64,000 nt of DNA from Beijerinckia indica subsp. indica ATCC 9039 (GTDB lineage Bacteria > Pseudomonadota > Alphaproteobacteria > Rhizobiales > Beijerinckiaceae). The DNA lies in assembly GCF_000019845.1 (NCBI RefSeq), contig NC_010581.1, positions 2,547,501-2,611,500 of the forward strand, read 5' to 3'. Positions 4,451 through 63,914 of this stretch are shown here, in pieces (position 1 is the first letter of the stretch; each line of letters begins with the position of its first letter). A program made the translations under genes and the position numbers. Below the pieces are notes generated by a model. It had not been told where the DNA came from. It was given only the letters and a program-made list of their open reading frames with translations, and searched no databases.

Positions 4451-5092
4451 ATGGACAGGGAACCACATCTTTCGACTTATCGCGCCAAGCGCGATTTTGC
4501 GAAAACGCGCGAGCCTGCGGGCCAAACCGATTGGGCTCCCTCGCAGCGCTTGCGCTTTGTCATCCAAAAACATGCAGCGAGCCACCTGCACTATGATTTC
4601 CGGCTCGAACTCGATGGCGTCTTCAAATCCTGGGCCGTCGTGAAAGGGCCTTCCCTCGATCCACATGACAAGCGCCTGGCCGTCGAGGTGGAGGATCACC
4701 CGCTGGATTATGGCGATTTCGAGGGGACGATCCCCCAAGGGCAATATGGCGGCGGTACGGTTCAGATCTGGGATCGCGGCTTTTGGGAGCCCACAGGCGA
4801 TCTTTCCCCACAAGCCGCGCTGGAAAAAGGCGACCTCTCCTTCCAACTTCTCGGCGAAAAATTGCATGGCGGCTGGGCGCTCGTCCGCATGCGACACAAT
4901 CGTTATGGCAAGAGCACCAAGAACAATTGGCTGTTGATCAAGCAGCGCGATGAAGAAGCGCGTGATGGCGAGGGGGAAGCAATCCTTTCCCGGGATCGCT
5001 CGGTGGCTTCAGGCCGCGACATGGCCGCGATCACTGCGGGTCAAGGGCCTGCGCCGACGCCCTTCATGCAAGCTTCTCGGCGCAAGGCCTGA
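4451..5092 (+). CDS. DNA ligase D 3'-phosphoesterase domain protein (stand-alone)
   Basis: 213 residues forming only the PE domain of LigD. Core motifs: RFVIQKHAASHLHYDFRLEL (His/Asp/Arg metal and phosphate ligands), SWAVVKGPSLDPHDKRLA, VEDHPLDYGDFEG and GTIPQGQYGGGTVQIWDRG. Family role: Mn-dependent trimming of 3' phosphate or ribonucleotide ends during non-homologous end joining. The C terminus (RSVASGRDMAAITAGQGPAP) looks like the linker that in full LigD leads into the ATP-dependent ligase domain, but the ORF stops there. The LigD polymerase-domain ORF starts 42 bp downstream, so the pair looks like a LigD that lost its central ligase. No Ku gene is visible in the window. Confidence 0.88.
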   Translation: MDREPHLSTYRAKRDFAKTREPAGQTDWAPSQRLRFVIQKHAASHLHYDFRLELDGVFKSWAVVKGPSLDPHDKRLAVEVEDHPLDYGDFEGTIPQGQYGGGTVQIWDRGFWEPTGDLSPQAALEKGDLSFQLLGEKLHGGWALVRMRHNRYGKSTKNNWLLIKQRDEEARDGEGEAILSRDRSVASGRDMAAITAGQGPAPTPFMQASRRKA

Positions 5093-58393: not shown

Positions 58394-58963
58394 ATGCCTC
58401 CATTGCTTCAAGATCAAAACCGTTATGATTGTATTCTGGCCGCAGCAGAGGTCCTGTTCCGAACAAAAGGCTATCATGCGACATCCATGAGCGATGTTGC
58501 AGAGCAATGCCAGATCCAGAAAGCAGCCCTTTATTATCATTTCGCCAGTAAAGAAGCGTTAGCTCTCGCCGTCATGGCAAAGGTGCAAGCCTATTTCGAC
58601 AAAGTGGTTTTCGGCTTCGCTTACGACAAGGACATGCCTCGATCAGAACGCTTAGCCAAGCTGGCTCAGAACTTGGCCGCTTATTATTCTGCCGATACCG
58701 GCGGTTGCCTCTTCGCCGGCTTTGCGGTCGAAGAGTTGGCGGACACGCCAGCGTTCCACGCTCCTATCCAACACTACTTCAAATCCTGGACGAAAGCATG
58801 TGAAACTCTTTTTGCAGAGGTCTATGATTCGGAGAGCGCACGGACGTTAGCAGAAAACTTCGTGGCGGATCTGCAAGGCGCCCTTGTGATGATGCGCGTC
58901 ACACGGCAGGCGACTTATCTGCAACGTCTGTTTCTGCGTTTGAAGGAAACATTGGCCGAGTAG
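58394..58963 (+). CDS. TetR/AcrR-family transcriptional regulator
   Basis: 189 residues. Classic N-terminal HTH: ILAAAEVLFRTKGYHATSMSDVAEQC with recognition helix IQKAALYYHFASKEALALAV. The C-terminal ligand domain (YSADTGGCLFAGFAVEELAD, FVADLQGALVMMRVTRQATYLQRLF) resembles the AcuR/NemR-like group. A full DNA-binding domain makes it the likely reader of the paired ACCGATCGGT sites at 61100-61139. A divergent paralogue lies 680 bp downstream. Confidence 0.92.
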   Translation: MPPLLQDQNRYDCILAAAEVLFRTKGYHATSMSDVAEQCQIQKAALYYHFASKEALALAVMAKVQAYFDKVVFGFAYDKDMPRSERLAKLAQNLAAYYSADTGGCLFAGFAVEELADTPAFHAPIQHYFKSWTKACETLFAEVYDSESARTLAENFVADLQGALVMMRVTRQATYLQRLFLRLKETLAE

Positions 58964-59643: not shown

Positions 59644-60228
59644 ATGCACGGCAATAATCGAACTTCAGAGATGATTGTGCAAAAAGCAGCAGCCATGTTC
59701 CAATCAGACGGTTATGCCGCAGTGAATATTGATGCAATTTTCAAGGAATATAATATAGATGCACAACTCATTCTCGATTTATTCGAGAACAAAGCTGTGA
59801 TGACCTTATCCATCGTTGCTTATATTCAGGATATATTTGACAAAAACATTTTAATATATGCTTACGATAAAACCACCCCCAGCCCTGAACGCTTAGTCCG
59901 GTTGCATCAGGCCCTTGAGGACTACTTTGCAAAAAACAAAGGGGCATGCCTGTTTATCAATTTCGGCATTGAGCAGATGCACAGAAACTCAATGTTTACT
60001 GGTCCAATCTGGCACTATTTCTCATCGCTAAAAAATGCTTATAGCGCCATCCTTGAAGACCAATATCCTTTTGAGGAGGCGCAGGAAATTGCCGATATCT
60101 TCGTCGCCAACCTGCAAGGCGCCCTCATCATGGCGAGGATCAATGGCACAATCTGGTCAGTTCAGCGGCTGACGAAGCGGTTCCTCCAAAAACTTCACGC
60201 GAATGGAACCATGACGGATAGTCTCTAG
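59644..60228 (+). CDS. TetR-like protein with degenerate DNA-binding domain
   Basis: 194 residues. The C-terminal half is homologous to the TetR at 58394 (GACLFINFGIEQMHRNSMFT against GGCLFAGFAVEELADTPAFH; IFVANLQGALIMARI against NFVADLQGALVMMRV). The N-terminal HTH is eroded: MFQSDGYAAVNIDAIFKEYN then IDAQLILDLFENKAVMTLSI, lacking the usual K.ALY.HF.SKE recognition helix. It may have lost DNA binding, or modulate its paralogue as a heterodimer partner. Lower GC than the backbone. Confidence 0.75.
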   Translation: MHGNNRTSEMIVQKAAAMFQSDGYAAVNIDAIFKEYNIDAQLILDLFENKAVMTLSIVAYIQDIFDKNILIYAYDKTTPSPERLVRLHQALEDYFAKNKGACLFINFGIEQMHRNSMFTGPIWHYFSSLKNAYSAILEDQYPFEEAQEIADIFVANLQGALIMARINGTIWSVQRLTKRFLQKLHANGTMTDSL

Positions 60229-60278: not shown

Positions 60279-60503
60279 TTATAGCAAGGCAACCTTGACA
60301 TTCATCGATGCTCTGACTGCCGTCCGGCGCCAATTTTGGGACGAGAAGACTATCGTAATCTTATCGCCCGATGCAGACCCATCAACAATCCCGGCCACAT
60401 CTTCGACTGTATGACAGATAGCGATTGCTATGCCGCATAATTGCGCACAGCCGAGTTGAGTTTGCGAAGGCTTAAAATTTTGAAAGCCTGCCACTTCCTT
60501 CAA
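60279..60503 (-). CDS. Possible third small ORF of the operator-controlled operon
   Basis: 74 codons from a TTG at 60503, overlapping the previous ORF by 32 bp in another frame. Ends GDKITIVFSSQNWRRTAVRA, a strand-like pattern. No good Shine-Dalgarno, no family recognised. Real only if translation is coupled; low confidence. Confidence 0.3.
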   Translation of the reverse strand: MKEVAGFQNFKPSQTQLGCAQLCGIAIAICHTVEDVAGIVDGSASGDKITIVFSSQNWRRTAVRASMNVKVALL

Positions 60504-60768
60504 GGCGGCCGCATTTTAATTTCAGGTAGCGTGTGCGTGCACTGGTGTCGTCATGCATCTGTTCATGGGTAATATTCTCGGCTTCAAGGATGATCCGTTC
60601 CAAGATCTCCGTCAGTCCCGAGAGGTTCGTGGCTTCAGCCAGCACTTTCATCTGCAAAGAGATTTGGCGGATATAATTGGTTTGACGACGGATTTCGGCC
60701 GTTTTCCCATCATGTGCAGGGAAGAGCAAATCAGCGCAGTAGGACGAAGAGCAATCTGCATCAATCAT
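60472..60768 (-). CDS. Small unknown protein, second ORF of operator-controlled operon
   Basis: 98 residues from ATG 60768 with AGGGG about seven bases upstream. A polar start with two cysteines (DADCSSSYCADLLF) is followed by long helices (RQTNYIRQISLQMKVLAEAT, NLSGLTEILERIILEAENIT). The helix pattern L..L...I..A..EAE recurs in the 69-residue upstream ORF. Family not recognised. 29 bp after that ORF, same strand, so cotranscribed. Confidence 0.6.
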   Translation of the reverse strand: MIDADCSSSYCADLLFPAHDGKTAEIRRQTNYIRQISLQMKVLAEATNLSGLTEILERIILEAENITHEQMHDDTSARTRYLKLKCGRLEGSGRLSKF

Positions 60769-60797
60769 GTGAAACCCCTAATAATAGGCTGATGACT

Positions 60798-61007
60798 TTA
60801 GCAATTATAGGCCTGAATCGTTTCATCCCGGCACCTCTCCGCTTCCACGCAGGCTGAGGTGATGAGGCTTTGCAAAGCTACAATCTTTTTCTTCTTCGCA
60901 ATTGCTAAAAGATCATTCATTATCGAAAGGATATATTCAGAAGTAAAATACATCTTCGATAATTCAGCTTTTCCAATATCAATGGAATTCCCACAATTAT
61001 TGGTCAT
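60798..61007 (-). CDS. Small unknown protein, first ORF behind the TetR-type promoter
   Basis: 69 residues from ATG 61007; GAGG lies about six bases upstream. Helical, soluble: FTSEYILSIMNDLLAIAKKK then KIVALQSLITSACVEAERCR. Good codon pattern over its length. Directly downstream of a promoter with two ACCGATCGGT operators, so probably induced when a TetR-family repressor releases. Family not recognised; the EAE-type helix is shared with the next ORF. Confidence 0.62.
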   Translation of the reverse strand: MTNNCGNSIDIGKAELSKMYFTSEYILSIMNDLLAIAKKKKIVALQSLITSACVEAERCRDETIQAYNC

Positions 61008-61470
61008 TGGCGCCTCACAGGCAAGGTGAGCATTACTATATCTGCAGAAGCAGATATAAGTTGGAAGGAGAGTCTATTTTTTATCTTTATATTCGATTCT
61101 ACCGATCGGTAAGTTAGGCTATATTGCCAACCGATCGGTAAGTGTCAAGGGGTGTTAACGCTTTCTTAGGAGATTCCGGAAGACCGGCCTTTTGCCTATC
61201 TGGCGAAACTGGTCCCAGGCTTGTCAGCAGCCGTGTGAGAAGCGACGGCATGGACCGCCCGGTTCATCTGGCGTAAAGCCTTCATTGCCTGTCGGACTCC
61301 ACAGAAGCGGATACCGGCCGCTGATTGATGGCAGCCTTCAGGGACGGTGGGTTTGAGAAAGTGAGTTCATCCGATTTGGCAGCAAGCCCGACGACACCTG
61401 CGGGTTCAACTGTAACGATTGATAGCTCTCAATCGATACGACATAAGCCGAAAAGAATGTGACGTGGACA
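61008..61470. other. Regulatory and unassigned DNA between small-ORF operon and the cruF-like gene
   Basis: About 460 bp. The first 140 bp hold the operator-bearing promoter. From about 61150 to 61470 I see no ORF, palindrome or recognisable remnant; it is GC-richer than the AT-rich promoter part. Confidence 0.45.
61100..61148 (-). promoter_or_regulatory. TetR-type promoter with two ACCGATCGGT operators
   Basis: Two perfect 10-bp palindromes ACCGATCGGT at 61101-61110 and 61130-61139 (centres 29 bp apart), the first widened to TACCGATCGGTA (61100-61111). On the minus strand TTGACA (61148-61143) is a consensus -35; AATATA at 17 bases or TATAGC (61123-61118) at 19 bases can be the -10. One operator lies in the spacer, the other near the start site: a textbook repression layout for the small-ORF operon starting at 61007. 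Confidence 0.75.
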
Positions 61471-62358
61471 TCACCCCTTGCGTGAAAGCCTACATCCCTC
61501 TGGACCTACAAGCCGTAGCAAAGCCAAAAGGCTGGTTGGCACCATCGTGAAGAGCATCGCGATCACCGCTGTCTCTCGGATGTCTGCCGCCGACCAAATG
61601 TGGCCAGCGGCATCAACAAGTGTGGAGTCGGAGGCCAGCAATGGAGGAAGGCGGCAAAGGCCCGCCGCCAGATAGAGCAGAATAGGCAAGGACCAAAATA
61701 GGCGATAAAACAATGGGTAAGCATCGTGGCGCCGGCGCTTATAAGAGTAGATGGCGAAGCCCTGGAAATAGAGCCAGGTAACCAGAAGCCATCCCAAGAA
61801 GTTGGAGAGTGGCACTCCAAAATAGCCGCCGCTGTTGTACCAAATCCATGCCCCGGACAGAGTAGAAGCCGACGGGTCCATGACCACGTCCCACTGCGTC
61901 ATAACAAAAGCCGAGATCAGCGGAACGGCGATGAGCGCATAGACGGATTGAGGACGCTCTACTCGGAAGCCAATCAGCAAACTCGCGATCACCCATGACG
62001 CGTAGCCCATCCCGAAGTAAAGCGGTCCAACAATCATCGGAATTACGCCGATGTGGGGCATATCGCGTCCGACGATGAATGTGTACCGGCCGAATGGAAA
62101 CCCGGTAAGCACACCGATATTCTCCATGACGAAAGTAACCGTCAGACAGATTGCAGCAAAGACGGTGGCCTCGACCCATCCGAGTGCTATCACCGCATGA
62201 ACGGCGAGCGCAAGGATAGATAGTGCGGCTGTCAATTGAGCGGCACTCCCTGTTCCGCCGCCAAAAGCGATGATCAGCAAAAGCAGGACTGTAAAGCATG
62301 ACCAAGTTGCTATGTTGGTAAGGCTGCGTCTCACCGAATCCACTCTAAAGCGCTGCAT
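61471..62358 (-). CDS. Carotenoid biosynthesis protein (CruF/DUF422-like)
   Basis: 295 residues, seven or so membrane helices. Motifs FVMENIGVLTGFPFGRYTFI, VPMIVGPLYFGMGYAS-like IPMIVGPLYFGMGYASWVIA, FVMTQWDVVMDPSASTLSGAWIW and YFGVPLSNFLGWLLVTWLYF match the PF04240 family, which includes CruF-type carotenoid 1',2'-hydratases. No other carotenoid gene lies in the window, so the substrate is uncertain. Weak Shine-Dalgarno. It ends 38 bp inside the right IS copy's left end. Confidence 0.82.
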   Translation of the reverse strand: MQRFRVDSVRRSLTNIATWSCFTVLLLLIIAFGGGTGSAAQLTAALSILALAVHAVIALGWVEATVFAAICLTVTFVMENIGVLTGFPFGRYTFIVGRDMPHIGVIPMIVGPLYFGMGYASWVIASLLIGFRVERPQSVYALIAVPLISAFVMTQWDVVMDPSASTLSGAWIWYNSGGYFGVPLSNFLGWLLVTWLYFQGFAIYSYKRRRHDAYPLFYRLFWSLPILLYLAAGLCRLPPLLASDSTLVDAAGHIWSAADIRETAVIAMLFTMVPTSLLALLRLVGPEGCRLSRKG

Positions 62359-62396: not shown

Positions 62397-63914
62397 TATT
62401 CTGTTGAAAAAGTCGATATTGCGTGGATGGTAGATCGCTGATTCAATCCAGTTGAAAAGCAAGGGTTGAAGGTGATGATCGGACCGCGGCAAGTCGAGCA
62501 AGGGGTACTCTTCTATAATTTCTCGCTCGATGTTCATGTGCCGCCGGACCATTTGCTGAGAGCGATCGACCGCTTTGTCGACCTTTCGGATTTGCGGCAG
62601 GAGCTGGCGCCTTTTTACAGCGCGACGGGCCGTCCTTCCGTAGATCCCGAACTCATGATGCGGATGCTAATCATCGGCTATTGCTGCGGCATTCGTTCGG
62701 AACGACGCCTCTGTGAGGAGGTCCATTTGAACCTCGCTTATCGCTGGTTCTGCCGTCTGGGCCTTGAGGGCCGTGTTCCTGATCATTCCACTTTCTCGAA
62801 GAATCGTCATGGCCGTTTTCGTGAGTGCGATCTGCTGCGACGTCTGTTCGAGACTGTCCTGCAGCGCTGTATCGAGGAAGGCCTGGTCGGAGGAGAAGGC
62901 TTCGCCATTGATGGTAGCCTCATCAAAGCCGATGCCAGCCGTCAGACTTGTGTGCCGGGAGCCGAAGGGTTGCCAGCGGATACAATGAGCCGGGCCGTAG
63001 AGGAATATCTCACAGTGCTTGACGATGCCGCTTTCGGCGCCGCAACATCCGTAAAGCCGAAGTTCATTTCTCCAGCCGACCCAGCGGCCCGCTGGACGGG
63101 CGCTCAGGGAGGACCGGCCTATTTTGCCTATACAGTCAATTATCTGATCGACACGGATCATGCGATCATCGTGGATGTCGAACCGACCACGGCCATTCGC
63201 CAAGCCGAAGTCACGGCAGCCAAACGCATGATTGAGCGGACGATGGCCCGTTTCGAGCTTTATCCAGAGAGCCTTGCTGGCGACACGGGCTATGGCTCCG
63301 GCGAGATGCTCGGCTGGCTCGTTTACGAGCAGGGGATCGAGCCGCACATTCCCGTCTTCGACAAATCCACCCGGACTGATGGAACCTTTTCGCGTGGCGA
63401 TTTCGTCTATGATCATGAAGGCGATGTCTATTTCTGTCCTGCAGGAAAGATGCTCACGAGCAAGGGAACATTGGTAAATGATGGTGCAACGCTGCTCTAT
63501 CTTGCCAGCAAGTATGATTGTGATGAGTGCGCCCTGAAATCGCGCTGTTGTCCCAACACACCCGCGCGCAAGGTGCCACGATCCATCTACGAGGGCGCGC
63601 GTGATATGGCCCGCGATATCTTGCAGTCGAAGGAGGGCCGGACATCACAGCGTCTGCGCAAAAAGGTCGAGATGCTGTTTGCCCATCTCAAACGGATCTT
63701 GCACCTCGATCGGCTCCGATTGCGCGGGCCAAATGGGGCGCGGGATGAATTCCATCTCGCAGCCACAGCCCAGAACTTGAGGAAGCTCGCCAAGCTCATC
63801 CCAATACCACAGCCAAAACCAGTATAAGAGGGGCCTCGTCCTATCACCGTCTATAAATGACGCGCTTCAAATGCGTTTCGTCGCCGGAAAAGCCAACCCT
63901 TTTTCAACAGAATA
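62397..63914 (+). mobile_element. IS1182-family insertion sequence, right copy
   Basis: 1518 bp with the same 16-bp terminal inverted repeat as the left copy (TATTCTGTTGAAAAAG at 62397-62412, reversed at 63899-63914). Flanks GGCC and CGCC do not form a clean duplication. Opposite orientation to the left copy; the transposases point outward. Confidence 0.93.
62466..63827 (+). CDS. IS1182-family transposase (right copy)
   Basis: 453 residues, intact, identical in protein sequence to the left copy including every antisense ORF, which implies near-perfect nucleotide identity. Same DDE motifs (FAIDGSLIKADAS, LAGDTGYGSGEML, VEMLFAHLKRIL). Confidence 0.95.
   Translation: MKVMIGPRQVEQGVLFYNFSLDVHVPPDHLLRAIDRFVDLSDLRQELAPFYSATGRPSVDPELMMRMLIIGYCCGIRSERRLCEEVHLNLAYRWFCRLGLEGRVPDHSTFSKNRHGRFRECDLLRRLFETVLQRCIEEGLVGGEGFAIDGSLIKADASRQTCVPGAEGLPADTMSRAVEEYLTVLDDAAFGAATSVKPKFISPADPAARWTGAQGGPAYFAYTVNYLIDTDHAIIVDVEPTTAIRQAEVTAAKRMIERTMARFELYPESLAGDTGYGSGEMLGWLVYEQGIEPHIPVFDKSTRTDGTFSRGDFVYDHEGDVYFCPAGKMLTSKGTLVNDGATLLYLASKYDCDECALKSRCCPNTPARKVPRSIYEGARDMARDILQSKEGRTSQRLRKKVEMLFAHLKRILHLDRLRLRGPNGARDEFHLAATAQNLRKLAKLIPIPQPKPV

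Follow-up and report, generated by a model that had tools for sequence, protein, structure and literature searches.

Organization of the locus

Two paralogous TetR regulators, one of them with a degenerate helix-turn-helix (HTH), lie beside a pair of genes, convergent with them, for small proteins whose presumed promoter carries two copies of the same palindrome, and the question raised by this locus is what the two regulators may do at that promoter and what they may control. The window analysed here is a stretch of 64,000 nucleotides from Beijerinckia indica subsp. indica ATCC 9039. Its relevant features are as follows.

58394-58963, plus strand: TetR-A, TetR/AcrR repressor with a canonical HTH and a TetR_C_13_2 (LmrA/YxaF-like) C-domain; predicted operator binder (Pfam)
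59644-60228, plus strand: TetR-B, TetR paralogue with a degenerate HTH and a predicted TetR-like fold (Pfam, AlphaFold2)
61148-61143, minus strand: -35 hexamer TTGACA of the presumed small-protein promoter (sequence)
61130-61139: predicted operator O1, ACCGATCGGT, in the spacer between -35 and -10 (sequence)
61125-61120, minus strand: putative weak -10, AATATA, 17 bp from the -35 (sequence only)
61101-61110: predicted operator O2, ACCGATCGGT, near where transcription is expected to begin, +1 (sequence)
61007-60798, minus strand: 69-aa small protein encoded by the first gene of the unit; paralogous to the 98-aa protein (profile test)
60768-60472, minus strand: 98-aa small protein, predicted to fold as a two-helix hairpin (profile test, AlphaFold2)

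The TetR-A and TetR-B genes thus point towards the small-protein genes. A sequence-only reading of this DNA had described a consensus-like -35 hexamer, two palindromes, and ORFs of 69 and 98 residues with Shine-Dalgarno sites, and all of these were recovered. Read on the minus strand from 61148, TTGACA is followed by 3 bases, ACCGATCGGT (61130), 19 bases, a second ACCGATCGGT (61101), a leader of about 90 bases, the 69-aa gene and the 98-aa gene; the two genes are 29 nt apart, and a purine-rich, Shine-Dalgarno-like stretch lies 5 nt before each ATG (GAGG for the 69-aa and AGGGG for the 98-aa gene, picked out by eye). The same reading had drawn the unit from 60279 to 61148; the end at 60279 also takes in a 74-aa ORF with a TTG start that has no support.

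Agreement of AATATA with the -10 consensus is three of six positions (counted by hand). A promoter scan of the window yielded 6 sites against 4.4 expected; none of them used the TTGACA at 61148-61143, and the nearest minus-strand site was at 61024-60996, where the 69-aa gene begins. With up to two mismatches, TACCGATCGGTA occurs four times in the window against 1.14 expected, a number that 6 of 100 shuffles reach, and exact ACCGATCGGT occurs 11 times in the 4,418,616-base genome against 0 for a reversed control, with three of the 11 sites at the two modules described below. By themselves these palindrome counts are weak evidence against chance. The longer form ACCGATCGGTAAGT is found without mismatch solely at the two window operators, and with one mismatch at a single genomic site, C3:1863536; looser matches (two or fewer mismatches) are uninformative because the reversed control gives more of them (36) than the genome (21). 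A single regulon comprising all 11 exact sites was considered and rejected, with 3 of the 11 at the modules and the rest read as 60-base flanks only.

The leader of the 69-aa gene contains a 9-bp perfect hairpin at 61035-61056 (TATATCTGC-TTCT-GCAGATATA) as well as a nine-codon ORF that ends in a stop overlapping the start of that gene. A structured leader RNA was rejected as a candidate, with a folding z of -1.71, 11 of 200 shuffles equally good, and no Rfam match. Directly upstream of the unit and in the same direction lies a Caroten_synth (CruF-like) gene (61471-62358), with a DDE transposase gene (DUF772; 62466-63827) beyond it. The GC content is 0.45-0.53 over 57.5-61.5 kb, compared with 0.50-0.57 at 52-57.5 kb.

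A second module and related loci

The proposal that this is an operator-controlled unit of small, related proteins beside a TetR pair is supported by another complete module elsewhere in the B. indica genome and by two Methylocapsa genomes. The second module (L010, at C3:1863536) consists of TetR-A' and TetR-B' (53% identical to TetR-A and 40% identical to TetR-B, respectively), two operators after a TTGACA, and a convergent gene for a protein of 73 aa. This gene is preceded by TTGACA-TTT-ACCGATCGGT, the counterpart of O1 (L010:2541), and then, 26 bases on, by ACCGACCGGT, the counterpart of O2 (L010:2567), so that the operator spacing is 26 bp in L010 and 29 bp in the window. The 73-aa and 98-aa proteins are 39% identical over 33 residues (pairwise E 2e-5), and the 69-aa protein gives weaker matches (E 0.006 to the 73-aa and 0.096 to the 98-aa protein). 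A third TetR-B (B3, on contig C2), 52% identical to TetR-B, adjoins a truncated remnant of the small-protein family and an S24-type repressor gene (L026:4334-4828 and 4505-5086); the remnant matches at E 0.028, has one stop inside the matched stretch, and reached 7.2 bits, not significant, in the profile test described below. The intact family members found in the B. indica genome lie solely at the two TetR modules.

When genome contigs were scanned with a TetR alignment, 13 loci emerged; five came from Methylocapsa aurea or M. acidiphila (31-36% identity) and eight were weaker or partial. The Methylocapsa loci were retrieved by TetR similarity alone, and the same positions recur in the family set as G471 and G517. 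The pattern ACCGNNCGGT has four sites in three of these five loci, and two of them (L052:121 and L054:6480) lie directly before the only two small-family ORFs found in the five. These two ORFs matched the first HMM at E 5e-4 and E 0.04, the second of which fell short of inclusion, and a larger family profile at E 4e-20 and 8e-20, both being among its training rows. The hexamer before the first operator is TTGACA in L010 and L054 and TTGACG in L052. Both Methylocapsa promoters carry one operator, a counterpart of O1, and not two; their nearest TetR genes are some 2 kb away and point the same way instead of converging. Upstream of homologues, where the sequence-only reading had suggested looking for palindrome pairs, there is a pair in L010, a single operator in each of these Methylocapsa promoters, and none in 28 other loci. 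That reading had also named absence or frameshift of the small ORFs in all relatives as the finding that would count against it; homologues are present in L010 and in Methylocapsa.

A composite of hexamer and operator, TTGACR-N3/4-ACCGRYCGGT-NGG, has 5 sites in 298 family genomes, with 1 control match, and 4 sites in 3 of the 297 genomes of the order, two of these sites being the two modules. At E<=1e-25 a TetR profile found members in 3 of the 298 family genomes (5, 4 and 4 TetRs, with at most 11 candidates scored per genome), and the family genomes that bear the composite are these three and one other. This co-occurrence is partly circular, since these sites themselves served to define the pattern, and its hypergeometric probability of 9e-7 is inflated for the same reason; the near absence of the composite elsewhere is informative. 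Two of the three composite sites outside the modules are at the start of a TetR gene, and the products of these genes score 38.8 bits (L064) and 26.0 bits (L078, just under the cut-off of 27) for TetR_C_13_2, which links this operator class to this TetR class. No TetR was recognised by eye at the third site (L066). A genome of the same genus (G001) gave no match for the TetRs, the operator, or the small family.

The small proteins and their family

The two small proteins were assessed with an HMM built from 25 family members outside the modules (14 from fetched loci, and 11 database proteins whose context was unseen). Among the 538 window ORFs of at least 40 aa, this profile placed the 98-aa ORF first (28.6 bits) and the 69-aa ORF second (15.5 bits), compared with 5.9 bits for the best of 1200 shuffled controls, although the test is not fully independent because its training members came from profiles containing module proteins. 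The same profile gave 31.4 bits for the 73-aa protein of L010 and 40 and 37 bits for the two Methylocapsa proteins. These scores, from a profile without module members, support the prediction that both ORFs are genes, and likewise the kinship that had been suspected from a shared 'EAE' pattern and put down to a possible duplication.

A profile of the three small cores (A3) matched in 21 of 149 genomes, its own included, and an alignment of 22 sequences retrieved 124 proteins from a set of 5.8 billion. Among the 120 matches listed, every given name was 'hypothetical' or 'uncharacterized' and there was no precomputed Pfam domain. For eight proteins scanned against Pfam and NCBIfam (the window pair, four from other genomes, and two from Methylocapsa), nothing came out above a curated cut-off or at E <0.02, and PHROGs returned nothing at the same limits for six family members. 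By profile similarity, the small proteins can thus be assigned to a family that is present in many Alphaproteobacteria and matched by none of the catalogues scanned. This corrects the earlier reading, in which no family had been recognised for them.

The profile search and structure prediction that had been proposed for the small proteins yielded, besides this family, a predicted two-helix hairpin for the 98-aa protein (AlphaFold2; residues 19-46 and 50-89, with a pLDDT of about 98 in the core and 76.9 overall). The nearest shapes found by Foldseek for the modelled hairpin were variants of ColE1 Rop/Rom, at E 0.29 or worse, and none reached E<=0.001. Membership in the Rop family was rejected, since any two-helix hairpin would resemble Rop and no sequence relation was shown.

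Outside the modules the small genes frequently lie near dprA. In fetched segments of 1.8-3.1 kb from the order, dprA was found at 10 of 20 loci, ruvX at 9, and either of them at 13; this neighbour count keeps all 20 loci, three of which were dropped before a further profile, A5, was built (L046, with the match inside a 1350-aa frame; L043, inside a 380-aa frame; and L048, a partial match without the YI motif). Outside the order, in five families, dprA was present at 8/8 loci. The small gene and dprA are convergent, tail-to-tail, in 18/18 cases, which come from several alphaproteobacterial families (L029, L031, L032, L034-L037, L039, L042, L047, L094, L096-L102), with gaps of 0.6 kb in L100 and 1.2 kb in L094. 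The dprA link is one of synteny and not of a shared operon. At the other 10 of the 20 order loci and at the six Methylocapsa copies dprA was not seen, and no family member was found within the fetched flanks of dprA in B. indica, G001, or the two Methylocapsa genomes. The window copies adjoin the TetR pair, not dprA. By profile, the dprA-linked proteins are of the same family as the window proteins, but they differ from the window module in the operator, with ACCGRYCGGT absent from 28 loci outside the Beijerinckia and Methylocapsa genomes (21 of them with dprA and/or ruvX). It is absent as well from four further Methylocapsa loci.

Each of the two Methylocapsa genomes has two further copies of the family, one per species beside an S24-type repressor gene. 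In L075 and L076, small-family genes adjoin S24/HTH repressor genes that are 92% identical between the two genomes. Together with the remnant on C2, copies of this kind place the family beside at least two unrelated repressor types. Of 20 family genes, 5 (L031, L035, L036, L047, and L076) have the sequence GTTGCAA/TTGCAAC upstream, compared with about 0.5 in simple shuffles (largest 3); it is perhaps the operator of another regulator.

Divergence of the TetR paralogues

The two TetRs had been described as paralogues, one with a degenerate HTH, and the domain scores bear this out. TetR-A and TetR-B are 34% identical. TetR-A reaches 66.1 bits for TetR_N (Pfam cut-off 24) and 45.3 bits for TetR_C_13_2 (cut-off 27), and is also above the curated cut-off of TetR_C_13, whereas TetR-B reaches 21.1 bits for TetR_N, under the cut-off, and 25.4 bits for TetR_C_13_2, just under it. 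The AlphaFold2 model of TetR-B, computed from an alignment of TetR relatives, has nine helices and a mean pLDDT of 88.9, and in this model helices persist at the HTH positions. The net charge of the TetR-B recognition segment is -3.

Sorted by their HTH, 13 TetRs fell into seven canonical and six degenerate ones. Among four canonical TetRs (TetR-A, TetR-A', and one from each Methylocapsa), HTH helices 2-3 are 71-83% identical and the C-domains 43-72%, the HTH being higher in 6/6 pairs; among the six degenerate TetRs, the HTH stretch is 17-46% and the C-domain 31-60% identical, the C-domain being higher in 15/15 pairs. The HTH half of this contrast is built in because the grouping was by HTH, but the retained C-domain is not. 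The six-pair comparison leaves out three canonical TetRs (Mau_051, Mac_052a, and Mau_053) that are intermediate, with the C-domain higher in some pairs, and the rule is broken by Mau_051-Mau_053 (HTH 38 vs. C-domain 46) and by Mau_051-Mac_052b (46 vs. 50). For the three Beijerinckia-type TetR-Bs, identities are 29-46% in the HTH and 47-60% in the C-domain.

Within a set of 12 TetRs, a 12-residue motif (TetR-A 157-168) is 87% identical within A, 88% within B, and 88% between A and B, and the HTH blocks within B are 18-39% identical. In the TetR-B model the motif lies within the eighth helix (residues 143-167); the last two helices of TetR proteins form the dimer interface. Recognition segments have a net charge of 0 or +1 in the six canonical TetRs for which it was computed, and of -3 in three of the six degenerate ones, the others having -1, 0, and +1 (two of the six without net negative charge). 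The TetR_N cut-off is still passed by three degenerate proteins, TetR-B3 (Bei_B3, 33 bits), Mac_055a, and Mau_054, and TetR-B' gave no match to TetR_N; TetR_C_13_2 is passed by TetR-B' and B3. The decay of TetR-B is graded.

In phylogenetic trees the three Beijerinckia TetR-Bs group with one another, apart from the degenerate Methylocapsa TetRs. The starred branches force two changes of HTH state in a tree of 12 TetRs with two outgroup pieces, and one change only in a C-domain tree and in a tree of 13 TetRs without outgroup. In all three trees the degenerate TetRs were united in 0% of 200 bootstrap trees. The L083 TetR is absent from the 12-TetR sets (motif, charge, outgroup tree, and intermediate-pair identities) and present in the 13-TetR comparison.

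Proposed mechanism and alternative explanations

We read this locus as a ligand-responsive repression switch (TetR-A) with a DNA-blind partner (TetR-B), and give this joint reading a probability of about 0.5. To judge from the anatomy of the promoter and its conservation, TetR-A dimers would bind O1, in the spacer between -35 and -10, and O2, near +1, shutting the promoter that reads leftward into the 69-aa and 98-aa genes, and a small ligand would release TetR-A, as its family suggests. Repression of the small genes by TetR-A is probable, because in the three genomes with the operator over a small-gene promoter HTH conservation is highest among four canonical TetRs, of which each genome has one or two. 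TetR-B appears to have lost its DNA-binding surface and kept the C-terminal dimerisation helix, and it would therefore most likely tune TetR-A, either through heterodimers incapable of DNA binding or by competing for the ligand. This role of a DNA-blind modulator is one that we somewhat favour, since in three intact paralogues the HTH has drifted and the C-domain has been retained. The products of the unit would be predicted two-helix hairpins of an alphaproteobacterial family that is often tail-to-tail with dprA, and our guess is that they act as a small dimeric adaptor in DNA uptake, recombination, or a related stress response.

TetR-B could instead be a working repressor with altered specificity and a different operator, in which case the two TetRs would control different genes and only TetR-A would act at the small-protein promoter. 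The 33-bit TetR_N score of TetR-B3, the Tyr in its recognition segment, and the helices kept at the HTH positions of the TetR-B model are all consistent with such a protein, but TetR-B is under the TetR_N cut-off and TetR-B' is without a match to it, the HTHs of the three Beijerinckia-type TetR-Bs diverge more than their C-domains, and half of the degenerate TetRs have a recognition segment of net charge -3. We regard this alternative as unlikely.

The remaining alternatives concern the small genes themselves. A small two-gene unit with operators, in a region of lower GC and with a transposase gene next door, could be a toxin-antitoxin or defence-like unit with a TetR as autoregulator. This explanation was rejected and is very improbable: PADLOC gave no match to a known defence-system model for four small proteins or for TetR-A, and one weak 15-bit match for TetR-B; the two small proteins are paralogues and not an unlike pair; single-gene versions exist in L010, L052, and L054; and at many loci (13/20 and 8/8) a lone family member sits next to dprA or ruvX. 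That the small ORFs arose by chance, with the palindromes belonging to an undetected RNA or having some other role, is hardly credible. In single-sequence searches of 60 genomes neither small protein had a relative in the 59 besides B. indica, the three-sequence profile of the small cores recovered only its own sequences from the protein database, and a hairpin does exist in the 5' leader, all of which would speak for this alternative; against it, the profile ranks the two ORFs first and second of 538 and above the 1200 shuffles, the leader folds no better than 11 of 200 shuffles (z -1.71), there is no Rfam match, and a homologous gene follows the operator in three more loci (L010, L052, and L054).

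TetR proteins, which rank among the most frequent switches in bacteria, are usually regarded as repressors that work as homodimers of a single protein. If, as proposed here, one member of a tandem pair retains the dimer helix and loses the DNA-binding one, a layer of internal antagonism would be added to such a switch. A bolder version is a new two-protein switch in which a TetR is joined by a dedicated 'pseudo-TetR' whose HTH was repeatedly lost and which serves only as a heterodimer partner or ligand sponge, the pair being set over formerly dprA-linked hairpins that modulate DprA-dependent recombination or uptake. We consider this version quite unlikely; if true, recombination would be inducible by an environmental signal. 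A small-protein family that recurs beside dprA and was matched in none of the scanned catalogues may also offer a handle on which proteins work with DprA in Alphaproteobacteria. Among the matches listed from the open-access literature, we recognised nothing on this module, on HTH-degenerate TetR pairs, or on dprA-side small proteins in this class, which is weak evidence of absence since most subscription papers lie outside that scope.

Comparison with known regulators

TetR-A resembles TetR/AcrR regulators with an LmrA/YxaF-like C-domain (PF21993, PF16925) in its domains and in a palindromic operator overlapping the promoter. The present locus differs from these in having two tandem paralogues, one of them HTH-degenerate, and a convergent small-protein unit as the presumed target. 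The NCBIfam model with the highest score for TetR-A is that of ScbR, at 64.2 bits against a cut-off of 150. The ScbR/ArpA gamma-butyrolactone receptors and their 'pseudo-receptors' share the theme of paired paralogues, but pseudo-receptors are altered in ligand binding with their HTH retained, while in the present pair it is the HTH that diverges and the C-domain that is conserved.

The AcuR model (NF051457) is the second-best NCBIfam match of TetR-A (52 bits) and the best of TetR-B (36.5 bits), both far below its cut-off of 247. The AcuR operator, as given in PMC3017554, is TAATAGAC-n6-GTCTATTA and differs from the ACCGRYCGGT (ACCGATCGGT) found here. With these scores and this operator mismatch, membership in the AcuR family was rejected.

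Genes for an iron-containing redox enzyme of the Haem_oxygenas_2 family lie near degenerate TetRs both on contig C2 of B. indica (L026:2503-3270) and in the M. aurea cluster (L054:5-751), and the two are 75% identical.
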